Shown: positions 15,701 to 61,878 of the stretch, one piece after another
How positions within the stretch are numbered: the stretch's first letter is position 1
Layout: every line of letters begins with the position of its first letter
DNA from: Apostichopus japonicus
Lineage: Eukaryota; Echinodermata; Holothuroidea; Aspidochirotida; Stichopodidae
Length of the DNA: 64,000 nt
Reading direction: 5' to 3'
Assembly: GCF_037975245.1 (NCBI RefSeq)
Contig: NC_092567.1
Span: 19,164,876 to 19,228,875 of the forward strand
Notes under the pieces: model-generated
Told to the model about the DNA's origin: nothing
Databases searched by the model: none
The model's input: only the letters and a program-made list of their open reading frames with translations
Made by a program: the position numbers and the translations under genes

Positions 15701-15844
15701 TTTATTTCAGAGCAAGCGGCTGATTTCCGTTCCATCTCTCTCTCTCCAATTCTGAATATTCATGACGTCTCCATGACAACAAACACGTAAACATTGCATG
15801 CCACATTCCTATAACATCACACGTTACATGTCTGGGAGCCTCTG

Positions 15845-16610
15845 TTAGTGACCTTTCTTCCGCGAGGAATCTCCAGTGTTTAGTCGTGGCCTCGGTAGGT
15901 CTCCAAACATCTCTGTCCCATCTTGCACGCTCATGGATAGCGCCCTCATACTCTCGACCATCCTATCCGGTTCGGGCATCGGTAGCTGAAATTAAGAGAC
16001 CACGTAACTTTTTAGTCGGTTTCAGAAATAGATGTACTAAGCCATTCTGTGATTCTCAACTTCTAACGTAGATGTTGAACTTCTAGTCAGGTTAAGCGAT
16101 GTATCATTGTAGCATATACCGAACCAAGTAATTCAATGAAATTTCTATGCTCTTTCAAAATCTGTTTACTTTTCAAGACTGTTTTAGTCCATTACACTTG
16201 CGGACAGAATTTCCTATTGTTAAAGTTCTGAACTGGAATTGATCGAAAGCTCTGAGACTGTGTAAAAAGGACGTGTAGATGCAGTTGAAAGAGGGTGCAG
16301 ATGAGGGTGGAAGGGTGTGAAGATAGGCCTGGAAAAGGGAGCAGACAGGGCTTTTAATGCAGTTTGTGGAATTTGTTTGGTATCTCGGCTAGCCGGGAGG
16401 GGGGGGGGAAGGAGTGTGTAGGGTTTCCGCCAAAGGGAAGGCAAATAATAACGAACTAACTCTCTCGTCTTACCCTGTCGTCTTCCTCATCGTGCAGGTT
16501 ATTTTCCATCGAGAATCGGTCCTTCGGCCAGACTGGCATGGAGATAGGAACAGAGGCAGCATACTGGGTACGATTTAAAGATAGAGGGCTCTCTTCGTTC
16601 AGGGAGTTAT
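15845..16610 (-). CDS. AKT1S1: PRAS40 exons 10-11, mTORC1 and Akt phosphosite region
   Basis: Exons 16610-16474 and 15985-15845. Exon 10 carries SVPISMPVWPKDRF, matching the mammalian SLPVSVPVW block whose first Ser is an mTORC1 site. Exon 11 carries SMRAL and MFGDLPRPRLNTGD, nearly identical to the mammalian C-terminus whose Thr is phosphorylated by Akt and bound by 14-3-3. The protein ends SSRKKGH and then TAA at 15847-15845. A minus-strand AATAAA lies at 15706-15701, about 140 nt downstream, and is a plausible poly(A) signal. Confidence 0.93.
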
Positions 16611-19600
16611 CTAGTCAATGAAAATATGTTAACAGTCACTGGCATGTTATATAATAAACGTCAAAACCACACAAGAGTGACGAACCTGCCGGTAGTTACC
16701 GGAAGTATAAGGAACTTCTATTTGATGATTCAATTTTGAAAAACCAGGGAATTATTACTTAACACAGTTTTGCTGGAAACCTGAATTGAAACTGTACAAC
16801 ATCTCACAATTAATGTAACAATATCCCGACAGATTGTTGCATCTGTCCAACTATAAAATTAAATAAGTCTACCATCTACAATGACCAAATGAACTGGTAA
16901 CCTCTTGAGATGTTCCTCAGAGCATTAAGTACTGAAAATTTATTAACCAACAATCTGCCGGTCTCTTGTGATATAAAAGATAGAAAATCCACTTGTTGAT
17001 GATAATTCGTGCAGAAGATTCTTGACTTCATAGGGAGCCAATGAATCCTCTGCTCGAAAAACGAGCGGACAGCTGTGAAGGAAATAGCTTCAAATATGTA
17101 CCATAACCAGATGTTATGTTTTCATGTGGGTTTTACATTAATGTACTATATTTTTTTGAGTGCCACAGCACAAACTAAATGATTTTTAACAGAGCTTTAT
17201 GCAATTGATTTTGGCAAACTTCCAACCAGACTGGATACTGCACTCCTTCAGAATGATGTATGCAGTTCTTTCAAGTTTCAAGTTTATTTCAGACTTTTGC
17301 TCAAATAGTCAAGTTTCAACCAGGGCTAAGGAGGCAACGATGATGGAATCTTATGAATCCCGACTGATTTTAACGATTTAAAAAAATTAACAATATTTAC
17401 CATCAGTACTGCTTTCGTCATCTGATTCAAAGAACGGCTTATCGCTGTCCTTCTCAAAGTCTTCGAGATCGAACAGAACTGGAAAAGACGAAAAAGATAG
17501 ATGGTATGTTCACGCCACACCTGATTATATCAGAATGCAAAATGCATTGAGATGCATTGCAATGAGATGAATTGCAATTGAGATGAATGCAAAATGCAGA
17601 ATGCAAAATGCATTTTGATGAATCTTATACACTAGACTTCTGCTTGTTTAGTATAACCAGAACTAGCTGTTACAATTTTGGCATGATAAACACAGGTCAG
17701 TCTACTGTATGTGGCTATACACACCTCCATCAAAAACAATAGGGGTCTTGTACTCAATGTTATGTGTCCACACACCACGAATTCCATCGTTCCATCGATA
17801 TCATGTAAAAGGTTTTTCAGAGTTTGACCTCTGGTGACCTATAGGAGATTTGACCTCACAAGCAATAGGATTCTTGTACTCAATATGGCAAAGTCATCTA
17901 TCATGTATGAAAAGTGTCCATGATTTCGAAAAGATGAAAAGATAGGGGGTATGTTAACGCCACATCTGTTTGAAAAATGTGACAACAGGCTTTTGGTAAT
18001 GGCTGTTATAAAAAGTGTCATGCAATGTCCTGATGAAATAAATCGGTAGAATATTGTCACCGAGGAAGAGAAATATGAAACGATTAGGGTGTCATATGGG
18101 AGATAACCCAATAATGTAACTCTCATTTTCATAATATTCTAATGGAAAAAATATAGAAATCAGAAATGGGACCCCACTGACATAATTGTCTCCTGGGCTG
18201 GACCTTGCTCTCGAAGCCCCTCTATAGAAATGTGACTGTGTCTGGTGTTGTCTCAAAATCTTGGAGCAAAACTGATTTATTTTGCATAACTTTCAGACAT
18301 TTTAGATTTCCAATCATATATCTTGTAACTTTAACTTCTGCAAGGTACTCTGGTATCCTACATAATTGTGAAAAGTCTAGCAAACAGTCTTCGTACATTC
18401 GATGGCTTTTGACTTACCGACTGGTTCCGCAGTAGAGGGTTTCACCGGCACCCTGTGATCCCTACTCCTCGACGACTCTTCTATTGTCTACAAGAAGAAC
18501 AATAACATTTCTAAAGTGTAAATAAATGAGCACTTCAAAACTTTTACACCTTCTATAACATGAAGGGATCTCTAAAACTAACCCAAAAAATGATTGGATA
18601 TATGCTAAAATGGTCACAATTCTTGTCATTAGACCCTCTGCTCTGAGATAACTTTGTTGTTGTCCAAATGTTTTTTTTTTACAGTGGCTGAGTTACTGTA
18701 TGCACTCCCCTTATGAGTATTTCCAGTACCATCAATGTATTAGATCCTCTCTTCCCTTCACTTAAAGGCATTGAAGACTCGTGCAAAAAGAAACGTCTCA
18801 TGCCTGTTATCTGACCTATTTTCGAATGAGGTGTAACAGAAGTGTTAGACACCATCATCGATCCCAGAAGATACACACACAGCTTGCTACAGTCGGTAAC
18901 TAGACACTAGTGCACAGTCAATACATGCAGCTACGGTCAATACCCACAACACAGTGTACATAGCAGCGATGGACATCTCAGGTCTAGATAACAAGGTATC
19001 ATGTTTCATTTCTGTCTGCATTTTGTAGCAACACAAAAAAAACTTCACTTGCAAGCAATGGATAGTTAACTTTTGCAGATGGCGGCACGCGGTTTGGGGC
19101 GAGTCTTCAATGCCTTTCAATTATCTTTGAAGTACCTGGTTGCAACTTTTAACCATGCTTTGCTTCTTACCACATTTCACTCATTACATATTTTAGCAAT
19201 GGTCTGTACAAATTTAGTGTAGTGTTCAAACTTTGCATTGGAATACTATGGTTTCCTGTGTATATAAAACTGCGATACATTTTTCACACTTGTATAGCAA
19301 TTTACCAATTTTGGATAGCATTTGGTGATGCGATACCAAATAAAAATTATTCCCTGAAGAAAAAAAAAGTATGAAACTTCTCTATTTGACCAAAAAAGGA
19401 GGGATTAGCCTCAAATTATTCGCCATAATAACTTTCAGCCCTGAAAACAGAGAAAGTTCTATGTATGAGTGAAAACCTACCCAGATAGATCAAAACTTTT
19501 AATTTCATTTTATTTTTTTGACTCCTTACCTGTACGTTAACCATTCCGACTCTCTGGCTGGTTTCCGGTGGTGGTTGTTTTCTTGTTATTTCAGGAACTA

Positions 19601-22600
19601 CTTGATTATTTGCACTTGATTTTTCAACTGTACGGAAAGAAAACAAACAAGCAATTAATAATAAATTAATAATAATAATAATTAATTATTAAAAATTAAA
19701 AATAATTATTAAAAATTAATAATAATATTAATAAATGACAAACAAACAAACAAACAATTAATAGTTTCATTTTCACAGTAATCCAGACTTCAAAATTTCT
19801 GGCTAATTAGTGACTAAAATGCCTGTGGATTTCACCCTTTGCCAGTGGAAGGAGAAAAAGAGACGTGGATTCTTCTGCCCGTAGACATGAAGATCATAAG
19901 AAAATGGTCACTCAGTTAAAAAGTATGCATGATTTCTGAACTAAACATAGAACTATTACTGCTTATTACTGCTTTTTCCGCCAATTCGCAGAATATTCGT
20001 GATTTCTTTGCTACCTCGAGGACAAAAATTATTATCCTAACACACAATAGCATACGCAAACTGGAGCCTATACCGCAATTTTTGCAAAGTTCTGTGATTT
20101 TCTTTTTACCCCAGACTCATCCCTGTTATTTTCAGAACATGTTATTGAGCTGCTCTCAACATCCTGCACAGTAACCATTGTATGTGTGTAAGTCATGAAA
20201 TGAAGGAAAAGTGAAACCTTGATATTAACCAGTTGAATTTGTTATGCACTTGCATTCCTTAGCAAAACTTGTGGATTAGGATTGTTAAAAATGTTTCCAT
20301 ATTTTACACAACAGCTAAGATCTTTTGAGATTTCACTTGTGGCTAGTGTATTGTCTCCTCTTGCCTCCTCCCCTTGCCCCCTCCCCACACCCCTCCCAAC
20401 TCACTTCTAACACTAGTGACATACCTTCTGCAGACAAATAACTTTGCATGGCACTGTATAATAGCATGGAGGCTTGAAAAGCCATGAAGTGATGTGAACA
20501 GTATACAAGCTTCACAAAGTTTCAATATTGATATCTTTCGATATTCACTTGCGGCTGCCGTAGGGCACCCCCCCCCCACCCCCATCAGCCCACTTCCAAC
20601 ACCACTTCCATTAACTGTTGATTAGGAAATAATCTGTATGCTGTATAAATGAGTGGGTGCTGGAAATCCAAATTAACTGACGAAAACACTGATGAACAAA
20701 CAAATTGACCAAACACTTGAGTTCTCCAAGTTTGACAATTTTTAGATATTTCATTTAAGCTCTAAATTGTAGTCACCTCTTGCACACCTCCCCCCCATTC
20801 CCCAGCAATCCACTGACATAACCTCTGCGGGGGGGGGGGGGGGGGAAATGGTCTGTATTATGTTCAAAAGCAAGATTGCTCGAAACCCCACTCAACAATG
20901 ATCACAGTTCTATTGAACAATGAACTATCCAATTTGCAAAAGAATTCCTTCAGTTTTCACTTAAAACGAGTCGATGTACTTCCCTGTTGACAGGACTTTG
21001 TAAACTTACATACCTCTGCGTGAAGATGGTCGATATGTGGTACGAAGCACCAGTGGTTGCGAACCCAATAGTTTACTTAATGGAGGAGGATCCATACAGA
21101 CTCACAAATAGTTATAAATAATACTGACAACCAATATAAACAGCAGATGTCGAATGATCAAACTCCGGTTTTACCGTATGACCACAGAACCATTAAATAG
21201 GGAAAACGAAAAGTTTTCATGAAAGGATGCATTTCAGGAAATCACCTGAGAGTTTAAAGTACCACAATTTCCTGTAAGGTGAGGTCAGTGGTCTTTCATA
21301 TTCCTTTATTACAGTAACATCACAAATTTTGTCAAACATAGACACAAATGTCATGACCAGGAAATGATAACTGAAGGATCAGTTAACGGGAAGAGTTGGG
21401 GGGGGCGGATTATTAGTCAGAAACAAAAGACAAACACAGGTACAGACAAAAACTGCCATTTTTACAATTTATATTGGTATTTGTCTGTATATATAATGAA
21501 ATGAAAAGAAATTATTGATGAGAATCAAAAATCTGCAGACAGTTTGAACTGTAAATTCTTGGAAAGTAGCAAATCAAACTTTTACTTTTTGTTTTGGAAG
21601 TGATACTTTTTTTTCTTTCTTTTTGTTAGGACTATTTTTATTACTTCGAGTAGCATCACAAGTAAGTTCAAATTTTTAATCTTCCTGTGGTCTGAAACGA
21701 CCAAATTTATGTTCAGACAACCAAAATCAGCTTTGGAGGTTGTGCAGTGACAACTTGTTTTTTACATCAAACTTTTACGTCAAATTCAGATTGCACTGTT
21801 AACAAAATATCCTCAAATAGGTCAAATGATTTAATTGGTATCAACCTCCTTCATTTGGAGATACTGGTATACAAAGGCAAAAAAAAAGTGTCGTCTGCCT
21901 ATGATCCACCCCAAGAGGAGTTTAACCGGCCAAAAGCCGATGTTCTATTCACCAAACCTACACATCTTTCCTACAGTGTACGTTCTTGGTTATTTTTTGA
22001 CGCTTTGTCAGATAACCAAATCTGCTGTTCAGACAATGAAAACCGCAAGACCTTGCTATCCATTCCACAACCAGAAAAAAAAAACACTGAACATTTGGCT
22101 TGCAAGTGATGCTTCAAACCAAAAGGAAGATGGCAACTATTGACAACCAAGAACAACAACACTTGGCCTACCACACATTCACAGCAGGTAAAACTTGGCC
22201 TAGCCTACATATTAGTATACGGGTAGTAAAGTGTATCTGATGGGGGCTGCTCACCGATAGGCCTCCTGATAACGGAAGACTTCCTCTGTGGTGTTTCTTC
22301 GTCACTCTCAGCACTGTCCAGCATAGCCTCTGTTAATGACTCTTCCAGCTGATGTTCTTCGGCATCTAATATACGTCTTAAGGTTTTAAAAAAAAAAAAT
22401 TAAGAAATAAATAAATGAAAATATACAAAAATAGCATAAAGTAACGTGAAACACTGACATTGAATTTAACTGTAAATGGTTGGAGACAAAAGAGTGACAG
22501 GATGGACAAATAGAAATACAAGTCCAGGAAATTGTTTCGTACTGAGTAAAGATGGGTACAACGGGGGGGGGGGGGGTTGGGGGGGGGAGACTCAGACCGA

Positions 22601-25600
22601 CAGTTTGCAGAATTCAATGTCCATGCAGTACCAGCTGAGCTACACTACTACTTAGTTTCTTGCTCAGGGTCAGGTCGTGGTACCAGTCTAAGATGTAGTA
22701 TCTTGTATGCTCTGTGACCATTAAAGGATCGCAGAGCTCAAAAGGAGCTTCTCAAATATATGCAAACGTAACGTGAGTCAAACATTGATACCAAGGTTGC
22801 GAAATAGGGTTTACTATGCACAAGAGGTTTCTTACCAGATGAAAATACTTCCAATACATCCAATACTTTATTTGAGGGTTCTGACAGTTACTATTACTAT
22901 GAACAGAGTTTCAATGAAAATAATTTTAATTATGGTAGTTTTTATTGGTGGGTGATGGAGTAAGGATGGGGGGGGTGGAGACAAGAGTTAATAGTCATAT
23001 GACCATGCATTATGATATCATCCATCAACATATACTTTTTTTTTTTAATCTTTTTACTCACCCAATCATGATATTTTTATCTCTGTAAGCTCTCCTTTGT
23101 AGACTTGCGAATAATGCTTTCTGTTCTTCTGCATATTTCCTGAAAAATAAAGCAAAGACATATACATGAACCAGGCCTTCGTCTCTGAATCAAATAACCA
23201 AACTCAATGGGAGACATTGTAATCTCATACTATATAATAACTAGAGCACCAATGGTGCAGAAGCTCATACCTTTTTGAGCTCAAAAATGTAGGGCCCACA
23301 AAACTTTATGGCTCACCAAATTTCAGGCCATTTTTCAGATTCCACCAATTTTGGGCCCATGAGGCCAAACATTTTAGGTTCAAAGACAAATTTATATCCC
23401 TAGCTCAAAACTGCAATAACCCCCCCACTCTGTTAGCAGAATCCTGGCCACACCCCTGGCTATAATTCCTATTTTCCCCCTTTAAATCCTATTTTACCCA
23501 CTCTCTCAAACAATACCACTGACCTACCCTATTAAACTTTCTCCCCTCTCTACCTGAGCAGACATAACTTGTTCACAAGCACACCTTCCCAAAATTTTGG
23601 CTGGCTGCCTACATACCTCAGGCTCAAAGACTTCTAAGAATCGGCAAGTGCTGATTGGCTATAGGGCTCTCATGCTTACAGTTCAACAGTTAATAACAAC
23701 TCCCAATCCTGCTTTAATTCCACTAACAGCCTCTGCAGAGCTTAACCACAAATGTAAACAATCACTGCAGAGACTGGGAGACAAATTAAAGGAGCTTTGG
23801 CAAAAAGGTGAAGGCTCAGATTGGGGATTAATTGTAATTAATTAACTTTTGACCAAAAATTATTAGGCATCACCTTATTCATACACAATCCAACTATCAT
23901 CAGTTCAACTTTGAATATGATCCATCAAAGTCTTGAGGAGATTGAGATATTTGAAAATATTACAAAGAATGACCCCCGATGACCCCCTAAATGACATTTG
24001 ACCTCAATTTTCCGAACACCCCTCGTAACCCTCATCCCGAGGAACGTTGTGACCAAGTTTCATTATAACTGGCCATACACTGTACGAACGGAAGCAATTT
24101 GAAAATATAGGGCCGCGGCCCGGGCCACAAAAGACCCCTAGTTGATCTTTGACCTCAAATTCATGAACACCCTGAAGGTAAAACTTCCATAGTACTATCG
24201 TGACAAACCCTCAATATTGTACCATGGAATCTGTAGGAGAAGAAGCATTTTGCGTATTTCCACAAAATGGCCCATTACTGCCCACAGGTGACCTTTGACC
24301 CCAAATTTCGGACCATCTCTGATGGCCCTATACCCAATGGTCCCTGTGTCCAAGTTTCATGAAATTCCATTACACACTGTGCGAGTGGGAGCGGTTTTAC
24401 CAATTGTTGACGGATAGAGTGATAGAGTGATAGACGCCGCACTGTAACAATAGCTCACACCAGCATGCTGGTATGAGCTAAAAATGATAGAGGTACTTCT
24501 GACCACAAGCATCTTTCATTAATAGAATACCAAAATCATACAGATGCCCCTTTAGAAGACAGTGTAACACAAAAAGTCAAATTAGTGCTGATGTGCCTCA
24601 TAAACTGGGTGGATGGAATTCCATGGAATCCTGAAAATGGAATGAATTGCATATATATAAAAAACTAAAAAAAAAACTTTTGTGCATACTTGATTCTCTC
24701 ATCGACAGCTGTTTTTTCTCTGGCCAGGTACTTGGTCAGTTGGTCTTGGAGTTGTGCTGCGTTATTCCTGACGGCCTCTTCATTGCCAGTGATGGGTGTT
24801 ACTAAGAGGAATGGAATTAATCAATCAATCAATCAATGAATCAATCAATAAGTCAATCAATCCATAAATAAGTCAATCAAAAACTCAATCAATCCATAAA
24901 TAAAACAATCGATGCAATTGATTTCTGAATTTGTTCTAGTCTGCCTCTGAAGACCATCTGGCTGGCAATACAATTGACAAGCTAGGCCTCTCACCTGTTT
25001 TTACATATCGTTGTTTGCAGTTAACAAAACTGTTTGATAATCATTTCATTTCTTAACCACGAAACCTGTTTATGACAGTAATGAAATGCAACCATTAAGC
25101 TACTCTAGAATGAACACTGCCAGTGTTATTTCCAGCATCTGTGTTTCATTGGTGATTTAAGGACTTTAACCCTAATAGTAACTTTGTTATCAAAAGCCCT
25201 ACACAGTCTGATTATATCACATTATTTCTTTGTTTATTCTAGACAAGGATTGTCATCTTAACATTTGAGATGGCCTGGATATTGTACTCTTGTCAATAAA
25301 GTCTTTTACAACTGTCATGCATTTCTGTCATAATGTTTAGTTTCTAAAGCATCTCATTGGGGATAAAACTGAAATGCATCAAAGTTTTTCAAACAATGCA
25401 ATATTGACGTACAGTATAAGTATAATTCTGGTGCAAAAAACAATTGCTTTGATTGGGGGGGAAGCAACCTACTTTTAATTGAAGTCTAACCACAGGTGGC
25501 TCTCATATGTATGTTTGATGTCAGGAGACTAACCACTACAGTACATTAAATGTGTATTTTCTCACCATGGGCTCTGCAAGGATACACTTTTCCTTGTTGG

Positions 25601-28600
25601 GAGGGAAGGGGGGGGGAATGATTCGAAGGAACCCGTTCAGGGTCTATGTAATGCTGAAAGGGCCTTTTTTCTTTTAACATATATTTATACCTAAAGATCT
25701 CCGAGTTCATTCCTATAAAGGAAGTTTGTTCTGTGAATTGCTGTTTACGTCTGTCACACTTTCTGCTGACATCACATAAATTTTGTGAATGTCTTGAACA
25801 GGTCAAATAAAGAAATGTGGCAACATGAACTAGCAGGTTTGATATTTTTATTCCTTTTCAATCCATTGCTCTTGGATTATTCCTGGTAGATATAAAATTT
25901 CTTCAGATCATCCATTACATTGCCAATTTAGACTTTAAGCCATGAGTACAAAAGTATGAATACCAGTAAAAAGAAGAAAAATTATACTTTCTAAGAATAT
26001 CAGTACAAGAAAAATGCTCCATGAGTTAGAACTATAACCTAATCTTAAGCTAGTATCTATATACTAGGTTCTCATATTGCCAGCAGTATGATTATAAATC
26101 TGTGAGTGCAATTGAAAGCAAATGGGCAATTAAATAGAAAAACAAGAATGAGTATGGAATCAAAACAAGTCTGCTGCCACCATGATAATAAATATTCTCA
26201 CCCAACGAATGTTCCTTGGTTTTCAGTGCCTTCTCCGAAAGGAAGATCTTGAACAGTGGTGAAAAGTCCTCGTTGGTTCTTATGGCATCCTGTTTGGTAG
26301 GGTCATACTGACAAAAAGGAAAGAGATAATTAACAGCTTCGTCACAAGATATTGAACAAAACGAAAGATCACAGAACTGACGGCTGACTGTGACTTGGGA
26401 GCTCAGTCACTTTATCATTAAGCCAGAAATTATGACACATACTGGTCTTGCTGTTGACTTTTCCTTCAATTATGATGTTGCCAGATATCGGATACCTTTG
26501 ACCATGTTGCCACGGAAACATGCACTAGCTGCCTGCCAAATCAACACTAGATCCATTCAGGTTAAATGTTTACATTTTCCATGCCCTGGCTTAAATTGGT
26601 GGGGTCAGCAACTTGCTGACAGCAATGATTACAAGATGAAATCTATTTCCGCACGAATTTGACACCTTCAAAGTCCCTCTTTTGTCCAAAATGTAGAAAC
26701 TTGTGTCCTGCCTGTCAGGCTACTTGCATACATGTAGGTCAATATTCATGAATACAGTTTACTATTCTGCATATTGAAATATCTCACATGCCAACACTCT
26801 TCCATAACATGTGGGCTGTCTATTTATCACTCTGATGACATGTACAGTAAGAAGTAAAACAGGAAAAAACAGGAATTCTGGAAGATTGTTTTTTTTTTTA
26901 AGTGGGGGGGGGGGACAAGAATTCCATCCTGAAATATAACAAAAATATTCTTACCAGAAGGTCAGAGTTGATCAAGACCCTATTCAGTCCCTTCACGGCA
27001 TGTGCAGCATAGCACCATGTGTCACAGTTACTGCACTTGTACACAACCCAATCAGAAGTTGTCTTTGCTTGTATCAGGCATTCCTGTTCCTGAAATACAA
27101 GAAAATAATGAAGAAGGATACATGTAATGCTGCTAAAGAAATAGTTCAAAAAAAGTAACAAGTGTCAATTTTTGCTGTCACCCATGAATTCCATACCCCC
27201 CCCCACCTTGTCTCTTTATAAATTAGCTTCATGATGAAGATGAATTCAGTTCTTTGCTCTCATTAAACCCCACTCACCCCCCCCCCAACCCCCACTTTCA
27301 TCTCTTTCTTCTGTCACTTTCCTCCTATTTTGTATGGCTTACAAACATGGTTGGCTGACTTAAATCACATCCATGTAAATCACATACAGTAGTTCAATTG
27401 CTTGATATTTTTTGAAAATATAAATCACAGATTTAAATCTTTCACAAATCTGGTTAAAAAAAATATATGAACATTATGAAAATAAGAACAGAAATAGTGA
27501 TTTATACTTTCTCAGATCCCTTATTTAACAAGTTAAAAACTTGCAAAAGTGGTATATACAACTTAATTTAAGGTTATTAACTTAATAAACTTATTATGGA
27601 CAAGCAACTTTACAGGATGGCCAAGTATCTTAGAAGCATGACCATTTTCACCTTGAAGTATTCATAATTAATCATCAGATCAGTCAATATTAACATAATT
27701 TAACAGTCACTTTTGAGATCATATTTTCATATAAAAGGTTTTGCACTGGTCATTAAAATTTCTCACATCTTGTGGCAGCAAAAGGACAAGTGATGATACT
27801 TGCTGTGAGGGCCTACTTTATTTAACATGTATATTTAACATGCTTTTTGTATTTAACATGTAATTAACATACATGTATTTAACATGCTTTTTGTATTTAA
27901 CATGTATTAAACATGCTTTATTTAACATGTAAGTATAAGTACAGATGATTATGTGTAAGTATAAACTTCACTGAAATTACTCTACAATTCAGGCTTCAGT
28001 ACTCCAGTAAATTGAAAGTACTGTATGAAACTTGGTGTTCTGCGTTAGGGATGCACCGGATCCAAATTTTTGGATCCGGCCGGAACCAGATTTTGCTGGA
28101 TAGTACATGAAATCCGGCCGGATTTTATCCGGCCGGAACCGGATTTTTACATTACACAAAAGAAAATCATTAATAAGAAGTAGAAGTAAGGAGCAAATCT
28201 TAGGTGAGGTATACACATATTATAAAGAAGGTGATCAAATTAAAACCCCATTTATGAGATTAAATATGACTTGAAGTGGTGTAATCTACATTCTTTAATA
28301 AAATAACAACAATATAATTGTTGACAAAGCTTGATACAGTATGTAAATTTGTTTGCTGGAAAAATACTGCATACTACCTATGAAGTTTGTTTTAAAACGG
28401 GAAGCTACATTTCACATATCTCATACTTTTTACTGAATAAAAAGATTATTTAATTGTTGTAATAACACTACTATCTGGATTTAGAATTGTCTTTTATTAT
28501 TCATTATTTGGTAACAAATTTTTACACATAAAAATTCAGAGAAAACATGAATGCGAACAATAATGGGAAAGTAAAGATTCAATGGAACAGTATTTTGACT

Positions 28601-30066
28601 GATAGGCTAACTTGCTAAGTATATGAATGGTCTATTTTAACTGCACAATATTAAACTGATGAAGGCTGCAAGAAATGATTTCACTGCAAACTGTATATGT
28701 TGTATATAGCTTCATATTATTACAGTAGTTGTATTATTTTGGTTGATCTTTAGAAACAGTGGGTCAGACCATAATTTTTGGAAATAGTTTACATTGATTT
28801 TAGTTAATACCAACACCTTTTTAAGGAATAATTCAGGCCAGATTTTGAAAAAGATCCGACCAGATTTTGAAAAAGATCCGGCCGGATTTTGAGAAATATC
28901 CGGCCGGAACCGGAACCGGATAATTCCTCACTATCCTGCCGGATAGTCCGGCAGGACCGGATATCCGGTGCATCCCTATTCTGCGTTGTTAGAATATATT
29001 CTGTATACTGTAGTCAGAACCGTGGCCAGAATATAATCTTGTCAATGATAGAACAGACCACAATTAAAGTGTAAAGTACTGTATACTATACTATAACTTA
29101 ATTGTGATTCAAGGTTTAGTACATTTCAGTAGATCAGTGCTAACTTTCAGTAGCAACAGAGCTACACCTATGTCCCTCTTGGCTTCTCATACATTAAATA
29201 GAAAAGGTTGCAGGAGCAATGTAAGACAGTGAAACAGTATTCTCCTCTCTCCATCCAATTACCCCCCCCCCCACAAAAAAAAAAGCCTCAGAAAATGGAA
29301 GGTATACAAAAGGCAGGAAATTGGAGTACAAAAGAGATTGTTATTCTCAAAACCACAGACTCAAGCACAACATGTTGCCTCCAACATCAAACAGCTTTTA
29401 AACCAGTACTCAAACAATGGATAATACAGGTCTATTAAGTCAGTTAGTGGCAGTCAATTTTATTAATGTGGTGCAACCACAGCAAACTTTTTTTGGATCT
29501 GTTTATCAATGCTATCAAAAGCTTTGTGGAAAAGTAAGCTTTGTGGGCAAACTTGTACTAAATTATACAAGTTGAGTATTTGATCAGAAGTATTCAAGGG
29601 TCAACACAAGTTCCCAAATGACAGACACACAAAGTTCATCATGTCATGAAATACTTTTTTTTTTAACAATCCGACATAATTTTTTTTTAAATCTCATTTC
29701 TTTTTATCTTTTTAAAACAATCACTAATCCTGCTCACAAAGATCTAAGTAAATACCAGTCCCTCCTGATCCTCCTTCTCCAATTTAAAGAAAATCAATAT
29801 CGGAAACAGAGTGGCCCACCGCATTTTAATTACATCATTAAGCAGATGCTAACCTTTACCGGCAGAAGGATCCCCTAGGATGCTACATTTTTTAAACTTA
29901 CCTTTGATATTCCACCTAAATCAAGTTGAACTTCCGATATATTTCCTTCGAAGAACGGAACAGAGTTAGCTAACGGGGGCAGCAGAAGACTTGAAACATT
30001 GACTGGTTGTTGGTCCCCTCTGATATGAAGAACGATATTCAAACACTCACAAGATAACCGGGCCAT
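15845..30066 (-). CDS. AKT1S1: PRAS40 (proline-rich AKT1 substrate 1) orthologue, 11 coding exons, 413 aa
   Basis: Exons in transcription order: 30066-29902, 27089-26955, 26307-26202, 24801-24690, 23139-23062, 22376-22255, 19627-19530, 18487-18418, 17478-17401, 16610-16474, 15985-15845. All introns are GT-AG, all phases agree, and the sum is 1242 nt. PRAS40 is an Akt substrate that binds Raptor and inhibits mTORC1, and phosphorylation with 14-3-3 binding releases it. Seen here: Cys motifs at C6/C8 and C74/C77/C81, a predicted coiled coil at about 148-205, an acidic stretch at 210-229 followed by RKSS, a TOS-like FDLED at 298-302, SVPISMPVW at 341-349 (matching the mammalian mTORC1-site block), and RPRLNT at 399-404, an RxRxxT Akt site equivalent to human T246. 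The mammalian protein is about 256 aa, so the N-terminal half is an extension or was lost in vertebrates. Identity of the C-terminal half is near certain. Membership of exons 1-6 rests on phase continuity and a C-YAAH block. Confidence 0.9.
17401..17478 (-). CDS. AKT1S1: PRAS40 exon 9 with TOS-like motif
   Basis: Codes for residues 297-321, containing LFDLEDFEKD and PFFESDDESSTD. FDLED fits the TOR-signalling motif class (aromatic F followed by an acidic/hydrophobic pattern, as in FDIDL of S6K, FEMDI of 4E-BP and FVMDE of PRAS40) that docks on Raptor. The following PFFESDDESSTD corresponds to the conserved acidic Ser-rich stretch after TOS in mammalian PRAS40. Confidence 0.88.
18772..19119 (+). 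mobile_element. TTAA-flanked MITE, copy A (PRAS40 intron 7)
   Basis: Starts TTAAAGGCATTGAAGACTCG and ends CGAGTCTTCAATGCCT plus TTCA (the right TTAA is mutated). The ends are ~16-bp terminal inverted repeats. The interior (CACCATCATCGATCCCAG and on) matches copies B and C. No coding capacity. Confidence 0.92.
22255..26307 (-). CDS. AKT1S1: PRAS40 coding exons 3-6, coiled-coil and acidic linker
   Basis: Exons 26307-26202, 24801-24690, 23139-23062 and 22376-22255 code for residues 101-239. Residues about 148-205 are rich in E, K, Q, A and L with heptad-like spacing (QLQDQLTKYLAREKTAVDER and on), so a coiled coil is likely. Exon 6 is acidic (SDEE) and ends in RKSSVIRRP, a basophilic kinase-type site. 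I know of no vertebrate PRAS40 counterpart for this part. It could mediate oligomerisation or partner binding; that is inference. Confidence 0.75.
23241..24487 (-). mobile_element. Helitron-like non-autonomous element
   Basis: On the minus strand it begins with TC directly after A (A|TCATTTTTAGCTC) and ends with hairpin GCACCATTGGTGC, T, then CTAG before T. This fits 5'-TC...CTRR-3' inserted between A and T. The interior has GGTCA/TGACC-rich text like 1-1250 and a palindrome ACCAGCATGCTGGT near the 5' end. No helicase is encoded. An alternative is a foldback element with GCTCATACC/GGTATGAGC ends. Confidence 0.5.
26955..27089 (-). CDS. AKT1S1: PRAS40 coding exon 2, cysteine-rich block
   Basis: This 135-nt exon is phase 0 at both ends and gives residues 56-100, including YKCSNCDTWCYAAH. 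The C-YAAH part resembles the CAYAAH stretch near the N-terminus of mammalian PRAS40 as I remember it. It is the only sequence link between this N-terminal half and the vertebrate protein. The CSNC pair reads like half a zinc ribbon. Confidence 0.75.
27818..27935. repeat. TTTAACATG tandem block
   Basis: About eight TTTAACATG or ATTAACAT words separated by short spacers, with one higher-order repeat TTTAACATGCTTTTTGTA. Confidence 0.85.
28046..28978. mobile_element. Non-autonomous hAT transposon, 933 bp, perfect TSD
   Basis: Terminal inverted repeats TAGGGATGCACCGGAT and ATCCGGTGCATCCCTA match over 16 bp. The flanks are identical 8-bp duplications TTCTGCGT (28038-28045 and 28979-28986), diagnostic of hAT. 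Subterminal ATCCGGCCGGA words repeat at both ends. The middle is AT-rich without a transposase. It lies in PRAS40 intron 1. Confidence 0.95.
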
Positions 30067-30071
30067 ATCAC
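29902..30071 (-). CDS. AKT1S1: PRAS40 coding exon 1 (start codon exon)
   Basis: The exon follows a TTGCAG acceptor, has five untranslated bases, then ATG at 30066, and ends at donor GTAAGT. It codes for 55 residues beginning MARLSCECLNIVLH. The C6-x-C8 pair could pair with the CxxC of exon 2 in a zinc site. The start is chosen because it is the first ATG after the acceptor and the reading frame continues in phase through all ten later exons. Confidence 0.75.
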
Positions 30072-31747
30072 CTGCAAGAAACAACAATCAAAAATGAAAA
30101 ACAAGCAAACTTACAATTTAACAACATTTGAGAAGTTTGGCATACTTTCTGTTGCTACATGTTAAAATCATGAAATCCTTTAAAGTGTGTCATGTTACTG
30201 CACTACAGGTTCATAAAACATCCCTCAAGTGTACTATGTCATCCAATAGTCTATGTTCTGTGGTCGAGTTCACATAAGTAAACACTGACAAAGCTAGCTT
30301 ACTAATGATATAATAAATAGTATATGTGTTGTTTATATACTTTACATAGGCCCTAATGTTAGGTATGTCCTCAATTGGCTGAACAGTAAAGACTAATTAT
30401 CATTTAATGATTTATTAAGGAATGAAAATTACTATTTAATGCCGCATTCCCTTATTGCAGTATTTGTGCATGCACTTTTTGGGTAACTGTAATAACTAAC
30501 CTAGATGCTGTTAGAGCATGCTCGTTTTTTTTTTTTTTTTAAAATTTGTTGCGCTGCCTAGTATAGTCTGTATTGCGAAGTTTGGAACTCTGCGAAGTTT
30601 GGACACTCTAAGAAGTACAGGATTTCACCATGACAACCTACAGTATGAGCCAAATTTCACCAAAAAGTATGAAGCTACAGTTATTTTCTCTCCAAAATGA
30701 CCTGTGTGCAAGAAAGTACTTACATATTTGTCAATAAAATGACAGAGATCTATGAAGTCTGTTATAATTACTGAACGAGCAACTGCGCCACCAATTTTAT
30801 CACCAGTGCCACACTGTGGGTTGGGTATCCAAACTTCGCAATACTCTAGCAAAGAAATACCAGTTCCACAATCACAAAGAATTTTCTTGGAATACAACGT
30901 GAAAACAGTTTGCAGGAAAGAAAGTTTGGCCGTGTATCGTAATATAACCCAATTCTCCCACCATATCAAGTATATGTTCAGGTGATATAGACCAGAAGAT
31001 CTAGTTTTGGAGTGTTTCAAGGCTTAGGTGTCTGAACTTCGAAGTTACCATGCTATTACAATGTGAACTGAATATGGAACCAAACAAAATTGAGACCACT
31101 TAGCCTGGCCTAACATTGGAAGCATCTGTGAATTGAGTCATTTAAGTTAAGGAATACCACTACCTTTAGGCTTATACCTAGCCATGAGTTAAACTGTTAC
31201 TAGTAGTAGTAGTGTTACTGTTAGTGTTACAATAGTCTAGACTAGTAGTATTACTGTTAGTGTTAGTTACTGTACTGTTACTAGACCAACAGTCACTGAG
31301 ACTAAAGGAATATTAACAAACCTTGAATTTTGATCTGATGATTAACAAGGCTATTAGAATGTAGATATCACTGTTCAGTCCCAAAACTGCTGCTAGTGAT
31401 GAACTGATTCATGACACTACTGTAAACTCTTGGTACGGTATAGGAACATTATTAGTACTTTTTGTATATATAATAAACCTATGGCCTAACAATTGTAGGC
31501 CTATACACTGTATCGTATGTACAGTCGTACGTGAAAAACAGCAGGCATGCACTGTGTGATTCATGGAAAATTCCAGGCAAACCCTGAAGGCTGAATTACC
31601 ACAAGGACTGAGCCGACTCAATAACACAATCTTCTCTGAAACGCGGGCATCAGTTTGATCACTACTCTACAAAGTTGTATTCTCCGCACTTGACTAAAAT
31701 ACTAAGCTTGCAAGCAATGCCAAGTTGATAAAATCAGTATTACTCAC

Positions 31748-31860
31748 CTCAAATGATGCAATTTATCTGCACGTCTCAGAGGCCTCGTATCACGAGACTT
31801 CTTCTTTGGCTAGTCAACGCGCCTGCGGTTTGATGTTGTACGCACGTACGTACGTACCTA
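31748..31860 (-). other. AKT1S1: Possible non-coding first exon and start region of PRAS40
   Basis: Read on the minus strand, the sequence just above 31748 ends in TTTGAG and is followed by the strong donor GTGAGTA. The coding exon 1 starts with an acceptor and only five untranslated bases, so an upstream 5'UTR exon is required. This is the best donor before the LARGE locus. The upper boundary is not visible; the tandem CGTACGTACGTAC around 31845-31858 may be near the start site. RNA evidence would decide. Confidence 0.4.
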
Positions 31861-32039
31861 ATTATCAATGTAAGCACCAAACTGAAGCTATCCCCATATG
31901 TATCACCAGATTCATCAACAGATTCATTCCAGCGAGCCATTCTCAAATGGCACCCCCGATTTCTCCCCCAGCGGATTCCAGTTGTGTCACCAGACACTTG
32001 GAAGTGGTGTTTGTGTATGATGGGGGAGGGGGTGGGAAG

Positions 32040-32212
32040 GGGCAGTGGCGGAGTGTCCATACAGTCGGGGGGGGGGCGAATGCCCCCCCTGAAGGACTCA
32101 AATGGGGTTTTCTGACTTGCGGAGCGGGGGGCGGAACGATACTTCCGCCCCCCATATTTTTCACTGGGGGCTGGCGCCCCCAGCCCCCCGGTTCCTACGC
32201 CCTTGTGTAGCA
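32040..32212. mobile_element. Fragment of a CAGTGGCGGA-type element
   Basis: Begins CAGTGGCGGAGTG and ends CCGGTTCCTACGCCCTTG, with G- and C-rich blocks (GGCGAATGCCCCCC, GGCGCCCCCAGCCCC) between. Similar ends appear at 59296 (CAGTGGCGGATCCAGG) and 63300 (CTACGCCACTGG). The family is not resolved. Confidence 0.45.
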
Positions 32213-32246
32213 GAATACTTGGTCAAAAGTTGTGTGTATTCATTCC

Positions 32247-32341
32247 TGTGTAAAAGTAATTTGGCCTGACGTTTCAATCCTAGCAGGATATTCTAAAGAG
32301 GCTAAATGCATCAAAACGTCAAGCCAACTTACTTTCACACA
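32247..32341. mobile_element. Short foldback element, second member of the GGCCTGACGTTT family
   Basis: TGTGTAAAAGTAATTTGGCC and TGACGTTT at the left pair with AAAACGTCAAGCC and AACTTACTTTCACACA at the right (arms ~29 bp, a few mismatches). The centre CAATCCTAGCAGGAT matches the 13838 element. Confidence 0.75.
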
Positions 32342-33474
32342 TTCTCTTACACAGGCTCTCTAGTGCATATAAGCAGTTTGCTAACAGTTTTAATTTATTT
32401 TGTATACCTTCCTGTCTAACTTTTGGTCATTGCAAACGTCATATGGAGGGAGGGGACACTATGCACCCACCCACCCCTAGCGACGTCACAGTCAGATTCA
32501 TCCCAATATTGAGAGTAATCACAAGAGCCTTCCGATCCTCAGTGCATATATTCCCAGATTGAGAGTTATACATAGATCAAGCATATTTATCAATGGTAAC
32601 GCGTACGACCTAACTTGGGTGAACTCGGATGAACAAAGGTGTTAACAATTTACCAAGAAAATCGTATTGACGTGTTTCAATATTGCCTTAAGAATGATAT
32701 AAGACGTTCGTAGATAACATTCTAAAACTACTTAGTTGTATCATATTTAAATCCTTTTATGTAAAATTTTCGGTCTATGTCACATATTTTCTACACAATT
32801 AGTTTCGCAAAACTGATATTTGTAATGTCCATGTACTTAACTAAAGTTAAATCACTTATGTTGGTAGGCTAGCCCCATATGTCGTACGGTAGACCTGCTA
32901 TTTATCATTAAGGTTACGAAGTCTTAAGAAACATCAGTTCTGAATCAGGCTAGTAGTACTAACAGCAAACGTTAGTCCAAAGAATGCTATTTCTTAGCCA
33001 GTAGTCTGTTAATTGTTATGCATACAGAATAAATATATAGGTCCTATATGTACAGTATGATTATAAACTGCTTAGGCCAGAAGTACTGTAATGAAGTACT
33101 GTACATGCAAATTGCTATGTAAATACCACCGTGATTTTCGTTACTGAAATTGAAAAGGCCTCAGTGCAGTGTTCCAACGTGAAATGCCCAAATAGCACTT
33201 TCTAGACATCTAACAAGAAATTACAAGTTATTCACAAACCCCAAAAGAATGTTTTCACATCTCAAACATTCTGCACAGAAAGGTCAAAGAGCAGAATTTC
33301 CTTCCAAGGACACTTACTATAAAAATCAAGTTTTCAATACTTGAATTGCTTTCCTTAAGAAATGTCTGTAGTCCTAACAGTTGTAAGTGATAATGTTCAA
33401 AATTGTACGAAAGTTAATAATGTTTCTAATTTTGTAGTGATTTACACTCTAATTATCTCTTTTTGTCAATGTAG
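32342..33474. other. PRAS40-LARGE divergent intergenic region
   Basis: The region between the divergent genes has no coding exon. It should contain the LARGE promoter and any LARGE 5'UTR exon. No TATA box, CpG island or start site can be fixed by eye. Confidence 0.4.
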
Positions 33475-33511
33475 GAAAGATGATTTTTGCAACTCCTTTT
33501 GAGCATCAACA

Positions 33512-51026
<17,515 letters not shown>

Positions 51027-60253: not shown

Positions 60254-60358
60254 TACTGGTTACATTTTGACCCTATGTAGCCAAATATTGCCGTGGTCTT
60301 TCTCATTTGTCTTTTTTATTTTCGGTTTTGTCTTCCTGTTTTTTTCGTGTAGCAAACT

Positions 60359-60569
60359 ATGCAACGTTTCATGGAAAAGGCTAGGTTAATCCTTTGGGTG
60401 CTGGCGATCGTCGTGTCTCTATGGAAACCAACTTTACAAGATGAAATACTTTGTGAAGAGACATACGAACTTGAAAGTACGTTAGAAACAGTGATCGTGA
60501 CGTCACCGCAGTACCCGAGTGAATACCCACCCAGGACGACTTGCTCATTCTCTTTCAAGGCTAAAAGTT
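60359..60569 (+). CDS. CUB protein exon 1: signal peptide and first half-CUB
   Basis: ATG at 60359 follows an acceptor-like CGTGTAG, hinting at an upstream 5'UTR exon. Residues 1-27 (ARLILWVLAIVVSLW core) are a signal peptide. CUB1 starts with ILCEETYELE and TSPQYPSEYPP, the usual SP.YP..YP CUB signature, and the exon leaves in phase 1 at GTAAGC. Confidence 0.85.
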
Positions 60570-61878
60570 GTAAGCCATTGCAGTTTTCTTCTTTGTTGTT
60601 GCTTTTTGTTGTAGTTTTGCTACTCCTATGCAGGTACCGTGGTGCGCACCAGGGGTGCAACCACGTTTTTTGTAGGCACGGAGGGGGGGGGGCGATAAGA
60701 TGTTATGTCGTCGAGGTGAGGAGTCTAAAGGAAGGGTTGGCCCCTCCTCCTTTAGAAACGTTAGTTAATAATTGTAAGGCGCGCGAAGTGATGCGTAACT
60801 GTGCCCTTGGTGGGGAGGAGTAAATTAGTGGATGGTTCTTCCCCTGTGAGAAAGTTTAATATGTTTCAGGGTGTTCAGACGCAAAAGATGGTAATGGTTT
60901 GCGACTCTTCAAGCTACTGTACTTATTAATGTAATAATGTGTTAATGTTCAAGAGTTTTCCACATCGGTTAGGCTAGTCTGCCCCAATATAAACGTTCTT
61001 GAAGATGGATCAATAAAATTGTGAAAAAAATAGATGGTACGACTTTTTAAGAATGTCACGTGACGTTGAAGAGCTTAATTGATTGGTGAATCGACAATTA
61101 TGGTAGACTTACGTCATAGTCCTTCAACTTCATTCTTTTGATTCTTCTTTTTTCAGATCACAGGTTGAGAATAATATTTGATGTCTTTGAATTAGAGAGA
61201 GCGAATAACTATGGTAGCTGTAGCTATGACTACATCGAAATTCACGACGGTGTTTCGGCAGATGCACCGAGCTTTGGTGTCTGGTGCGGTCAAATAGCGC
61301 CGCCTATCATCATCAGTACCAGGACTCGGCTGTTCTTGTCATTCTTGACCGATGGATCCATCCAGGAAGTTGGATTTTCCGCCACGGTTACCATGGTAAA
61401 CTCTAGCTATGTTGGTGAGTTTATCGGCGTCTCTGGAAAACGACTTCAAGCAAGTTTATAAACCACTGGTGTTTATACGTTTAAAAAAGAACTTCGATTG
61501 TGTTGTATATAGACTGTTAAACATCACTGTTATCGGTTGAATTTGTGTTCCTATAAAACGTTTAAGTTTGATTACACATATTTAATTTACTTCTTGTGTT
61601 TTTGGATAAAATTTAAATATTAAATGTTCCTCATCTGAAGCAGTTATGCGGCTGGAATATTTTGTCTAATGTAACAATCATTGTGAAAACGTCAGATGAA
61701 AAACAAAAACTCAGTAGGAAAACAAAAGTTTTAAGAAACAAAAAAACGAAAAAAGTTTTAAATGCATTACAAATTTTGTAAAAATCAAATGGTGTTGGAT
61801 GCCATGAATGCTTTGTTATTCATATGAAGTTAGAATTTGTTCCCTATCTGATATGAAATATAGTTAGTCAATATAATA

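Follow-up and report, generated by a model that had tools for sequence, protein, structure and literature searches.

A long PRAS40 gene in the sea cucumber Apostichopus japonicus and a putative zinc site in its N-terminal half

The sea cucumber Apostichopus japonicus carries a gene for a long form of the mTORC1 inhibitor PRAS40 (AKT1S1), a gene that is real on sequence evidence and whose product adds some 240 residues in front of the part shared with the human protein. The gene lies on the minus strand of contig NC_092567.1 (assembly GCF_037975245.1, positions 19,164,876 to 19,228,875; these 64,000 nucleotides are called the window hereafter, and positions refer to it), where nine coding exons running from 30066 to 15845 and joined by eight GT-AG junctions form an open in-phase frame for a product of 357 residues. 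As a whole the observations would best be explained by a long-form PRAS40 consisting of a zinc-pinned N-terminal domain of the beta-tent kind, a helical linker and an mTORC1-docking tail, a reading that we judge to be about evenly poised between right and wrong.

Gene model, coding potential and docking tail

The C-terminal part is PRAS40, as a first reading of the letters without database searches (the sequence-only reading) had proposed. Residues 248-352 match the Pfam family PRAS (PF15798) with an E-value of 9.5e-24 and 84.9 bits, compared to a curated cut-off of 27, and a phmmer search found human PRAS40 (PDB 6sb0 chain T) with an E-value of 5.8e-16 over residues 241-354. At E<=10 the PDB yielded three sequences, all of human PRAS40. 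Counterparts of the docking elements of the human protein are found in order along the tail: 1) FDLED corresponds to the human TOR signaling (TOS) motif FVMDE, aligned with one gap; 2) AASVPISMPVW aligns with human AKSLPVSVPVW, the segment in which we take the mLST8 strand of human PRAS40 to lie; 3) DRMVESMRALSMS aligns with human DRIAASMRALVLR as counterpart of the helix that binds the FRB domain; 4) the Akt site of the type RxRxxT, RPRLNT, is identical in human PRAS40. Judged by these counterparts, the C-terminal third would work as the human protein does: the TOS motif would dock on Raptor, the strand on mLST8 and the helix on the FRB domain of mTOR, and release would follow phosphorylation of RPRLNT by Akt and binding of 14-3-3. 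The TOS motif and its FVMDE variant as well as the human FRB helix (residues 212-232) are described in PMC6325617, and the roles of the docking elements in human PRAS40 in PMC6325617 and PMC7464330. The former account finds scant support for PRAS40 being a regulator under the control of Akt, and the physiological role of human PRAS40 itself is debated.

How is this tail connected to the exons upstream? Exons 7-9 contain no ATG ahead of the TOS motif and in-frame stops lie upstream of exon 7, so these three exons need upstream coding exons. The six in-phase exons of about 240 residues that the sequence-only reading had placed there are borne out by the GT-AG junctions and the open frame, and they encode residues 1-239; the endpoint given at that time, 30071, lies five bases 5' of the ATG. 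Exon 1 ends in the donor GTAAGT; no other open exon in the interval 27120-40000, that is in the 12.9 kb upstream of exon 2, starts with an ATG, ends in phase 0, spans at least 20 codons and has a donor scoring 7 or more. Joining exon 2 directly to exon 4 leads to a stop. Exon 3 is the top of nine candidates with phases set by the neighbouring exons, scoring 11.97 compared to 10.23 for the runner-up, which has the same donor and a later acceptor, and 9.83 for the best candidate with a different donor; five of the nine share the donor of exon 3.

Moreover, exons 1-6 read as coding sequence. To train a codon score we drew on kinase matches in the same genome: of 30 loci six were dropped for stops, and the remaining 24, five of them near-identical copies, supplied 5326 codons. 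Stop-free non-exon stretches of matched lengths, from which low-complexity stretches were excluded, served as controls. Exons 1-6 together score 0.128 per codon versus -0.148 for the controls (standard deviation 0.059; z 4.7), a value reached by one control in 3000. Taken singly, exons 2, 3, 4 and 6 are equalled by 41, 37, 1 and 9 of 1500 controls, respectively. Exons 1 and 5 are not above chance by this score (293 and 215 of 1500 controls as high) and therefore depend on phase and splice sites for their support. Multiplying the chances that each of the six exons is free of stops gives 3e-6, and a score using composition only gives z 2.5 for exons 1-6, with 33 of 2000 as high. It should be noted that the right frame of exons 7-9 scores 0.290 and one of the wrong frames 0.282, so that the codon score separates coding from non-coding sequence better than it separates frames. 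A search of the 671.6-Mb genome with the PF15798 profile hit one place only, and residues 1-239 gave six matches at E<=10 in the same genome, all to the gene's own exons; this PRAS40 gene is the only copy found.

The cysteine-bearing N-terminus and the helical stretch

What could the additional N-terminal half form? Residues 1-135 contain six cysteines, C6, C8, C59, C74, C77 and C81. The sequence-only reading had named C6-x-C8, C74-x2-C77 and C81-Y-A-A-H (residues 81-85), all of which stand where it had put them, and C59 is to be added. Such an arrangement of cysteine pairs is reminiscent of beta-tent domains, described as two beta-meanders pinned by zinc, in which a single structural zinc is held by two cysteine pairs and binding occurs via a cradle (PMC4287342). 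In the same description the first cysteine pair is CxC in the GFA family and CxxC in other zinc-bearing beta-tents. The marks of a beta-tent looked for were a single apical zinc bound by two pairs of cysteines, and two sheets of four strands each that stand perpendicular to each other.

For comparison we used 80 bacterial GFA sequences, mostly close kin and the best 80 of 211 relatives. C74 follows C8 at a distance of 66 residues, and the corresponding distance is 63 in 74 of the 80, 64 in five and 42 in one. Among 200000 shuffles of residues 1-135 a CxC followed by a CxxC at a spacing of 58-70 occurred in 192, of which 34 had the CxC close to the beginning, pattern and range having been picked post hoc. 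In addition, global alignment of the N-terminus to a GFA profile built from all 80 loci, CENP-V and 3fac outscored every one of 150 full shuffles (z 2.75).

Other sequence tests of a beta-tent came out weak or negative. The score of that same alignment is negative, -17 versus 247 and 166 for members of the family, and shuffles in which the cysteines were kept fixed equalled it in 7 of 150 cases. Comparison by hhalign of the N-terminus with GFA (one of the 80 loci plus CENP-V), CENP-V, Mss4 and Yippee gave no match. Residues 1-135 matched no Pfam family at E<=10 within HMMER's filters and no PDB sequence at E<=10. Likewise, a sequence search of NCBIfam with these residues found no relative, and in scans of viral contigs neither residues 1-135 nor the last 82 residues of the protein gave a confirmed match. 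Structure prediction was of low confidence for exon 1 folded alone, with a predicted local distance difference test score (pLDDT) of 41.7, and gave three strands for exon 2 folded alone, where the top model of five reached a mean pLDDT of 62.3 and the other four 42-51. No beta-tent entry was among the matches listed by Foldseek and VIA-align for this low-confidence exon 2 model, and none of those matches was of use.

These weak or negative sequence tests are also what speaks for the strongest alternative, namely that the long PRAS40 is real and its N-terminus adopts another small fold, perhaps with a metal site within exon 2 only or with cysteines that bind no metal. More precisely, C74-x2-C77-x3-C81-x3-H85 could form a site on its own. 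Such a fold would leave the N-terminal CxC without an evident role, and the spacing of CxC and CxxC lies near that of the GFA-type pair; we assign this alternative a substantial, albeit minority, share of the probability. Of the earlier proposal of a folded, possibly zinc-binding N-terminus, a zinc site is plausible from the cysteine spacing. The case for a beta-tent rests mainly on the cysteines. A beta-tent zinc site of the GFA type is put forward as the leading, unproven hypothesis for an N-terminus without known family. As the C-x-C-x2-C cluster of GFA enzymes is absent, the N-terminus is not a GFA enzyme. In the beta-tent reading residues 1 to 100-135 would form a small beta-rich domain in which C6, C8, C74 and C77 bind a single structural zinc. 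This domain would have GFA-type spacing, would be devoid of the second GFA cysteine cluster and would probably act as a module for binding, through which PRAS40 is tethered or tuned on TORC1 or at some other place.

Between this domain and the TOS motif would run a linker that is charged and helical (about residues 139-226). Residues 139-226 contain no proline and consist to 61% of E, K, R, Q, A and L, compared to 43% in the whole protein, and since the stretch is proline-free and rich in helix formers a long charged helix is likely. The sequence-only reading had gone further and seen a charged coiled coil and an oligomerising N-terminus, neither of which is supported, as the heptad signal is at chance level: the best heptad in residues 136-226 was matched by 63 of 500 shuffles in a simple score of the a and d positions. 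The same score also picked the proline-containing residues 29-56, at 1 of 500. Matches of the charged helical part to Rep_1, SUS_EPBD and MIC19_MIC25 in Pfam and to two NCBIfam entries were weak and far below the cut-offs.

The junction of exons 6 and 7 and other features of the window

The long form depends on exon 6 being joined to exon 7 across an intron of 4.8 kb. It could be imagined that exons 1-6 constitute a separate gene that reads through exon 6 to a stop at 22207, and that exons 7-9 are part of a short PRAS40 whose first exon is a different one. Indeed, the frame of exon 6 continues for 16 codons to this stop, the 1600 bases that follow contain four polyadenylation-type hexamers, starting at 21835, and human PRAS40 aligns from residue 241 only, all of which count against a single long gene. 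The donor of exon 6 is nevertheless in the correct phase for exon 7, exons 7-9 lack an ATG ahead of the TOS motif, and the PRAS40 reported for the bay scallop is long too, with 403 residues (PMC11591371), so we consider two separate genes improbable. The coexistence of the long transcript with a short one that starts at an alternative exon somewhere in 22254-17479, to which the long intron after exon 6 and the short human PRAS40 would lend themselves, appears very improbable; no observation against it was found, no search for a first exon having been made in this intron. The features of the long gene are compiled in Table 1.

Table 1. Coding exons and further features of the long PRAS40 gene (positions in the window)
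Feature	Position	Strand	Remarks
Coding exon 1, residues 1-55	29902..30066	-	ATG 30066; C6 30051-30049; C8 30045-30043
Coding exon 2, residues 56-100	26955..27089	-	C59; C74 27035-27033; C77 27026-27024; C81 27014-27012; H85 27002-27000
Coding exon 3, residues 101-135 and one base	26202..26307	-	Top phase-compatible candidate
Coding exon 4, residues 136-172	24690..24801	-	Putative charged helical stretch begins
Coding exon 5, residues 173-198	23062..23139	-	Putative charged helical stretch
Coding exon 6, residues 199-239	22255..22376	-	Putative helical stretch ends; acidic segment
Coding exon 7, residues 240-265	17401..17478	-	TOS-like FDLED (242-246) at 17473-17459
Coding exon 8, residues 266-311	16474..16610	-	AASVPISMPVW (283-293) at 16560-16528
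Coding exon 9, residues 312-357, with stop codon	15845..15985	-	FRB-helix counterpart (318-330) at 15967-15929; Akt-type RPRLNT (343-348) at 15892-15875
Polyadenylation-type hexamer (AATAAA or ATTAAA)	15701..15706	-	139 bases past the stop

Elsewhere in the window, a minisatellite at 44924-45873 is composed of 45.5 copies of 21-base units with 91% matches; because its unit is a multiple of three, open frames as long as 346 and 317 codons run through it on the two strands, and these are no evidence of a gene. A TCA trinucleotide array of 95 copies (41305-41590) lies inside an open frame at 41110-41619 on the plus strand; this frame has no Pfam match at E<=0.01, and its start resembles part of a LARGE-type glycosyltransferase. 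Open frames on the plus strand at 60353-61458, which are part of another gene, match the CUB domain with 4.8e-15 (61120-61458) and, below the cut-off, with 0.0038 (60353-60820). On the minus strand, positions 2368-2442 match the Rfam tRNA family with 35.1 bits (cut-off 29), are not called as tRNA by ARAGORN and may be a tRNA-derived repeat. In the genome at large, very similar kinase-like frames were found at six loci on two contigs, covering roughly positions 23-257 of the profile and in one case interrupted by a stop, and further matches to the same span of the profile on two other contigs; these frames are an expanded family, intronless in the matched part.

Comparison with known PRAS40 and beta-tent proteins

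Human PRAS40 comprises 256 residues and has a proline- and alanine-rich N-terminus that contains CAYAAH, as the sequence-only reading had stated. The suggestion that CAYAAH is a mammalian remnant of the N-terminus described here is not supported by comparison: the best local match of residues 1-135 to human residues 1-127 is YAAH, and 557 of 1000 shuffles score as high; for residues 1-239 it pairs residues 211-222 with human 7-18 (556 of 1000), and for residues 56-135 against the human N-terminus 315 of 1000 shuffles score as high. Since local alignments are no better than those of shuffled sequences, a mammalian trace of the N-terminus lacks support. Human PRAS40 (PDB 6sb0 chain T) and the sea cucumber protein are thus alike from the TOS motif to the Akt site, and human residues 1-127 resemble residues 1-239 no more than expected by chance. 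For the proline-enriched N-terminal stretches of mammalian PRAS40 the function is stated to be unknown (PMC5620322). The fly name Lobe, which had been attached to AKT1S1, is doubtful for PRAS40 and better avoided, as L and PRAS40 are given as neighbouring fly genes in PMC10476559 and the link between PRAS40 and Lobe is called unconfirmed in PMC6924039.

Long PRAS40 forms are not confined to the sea cucumber gene. For the bay scallop, AiPRAS40 is described from genome and transcriptome as a protein of 403 residues encoded by 13 exons; it has a single PRAS domain, and nine beta strands are predicted for it (PMC11591371), so that length alone is not new; the likeness to the sea cucumber protein is one of length and domain by description. 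The extra N-terminal half of the sea cucumber PRAS40 appears to be unstudied: titles and opening lines of abstracts found by searches of the open-access literature on PRAS40 mention neither a zinc-binding nor a folded N-terminal domain of this protein. Because a long form occurs in both a mollusc and this echinoderm, the idea of an ancestral N-terminus that was lost in vertebrates is attractive, homology of the scallop and sea cucumber N-termini being an assumption. A bolder proposal would be that the N-terminus of invertebrate PRAS40 is an unrecognised zinc-bound beta-tent, related to GFA, cereblon CULT and Yippee and endowed with a cradle-shaped ligand site, that a long helix connects it to the TORC1-docking tail, and that this architecture was present in the bilaterian ancestor and replaced by a proline-rich stretch in vertebrates, PRAS40 having begun as a ligand- or partner-sensing inhibitor of TORC1. 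We regard this chain of suppositions as speculative and rather unlikely to hold in full. If invertebrate PRAS40 did possess a folded zinc domain, it would be more than a competitor for the substrate sites of TORC1, and it could sense a ligand or partner via the beta-tent cradle (cf. PMC4287342).

Among beta-tent proteins the GFA/CENP-V family (PF04828) is close to the putative N-terminal domain in its cysteine spacing. Both have a CxC followed by a CxxC, 63 residues on in most GFA proteins and 66 here, albeit the sea cucumber N-terminus does not match the family profile and, in place of the C-x-C-x2-C cluster found between the two pairs in GFA (as in 3fac), has only C59 between C8 and C74. Mss4, Yippee/Mis18 and the CULT domain of cereblon are described as holding one structural zinc by two cysteine pairs, the first of which is CxxC in these beta-tents and CxC in the long PRAS40.

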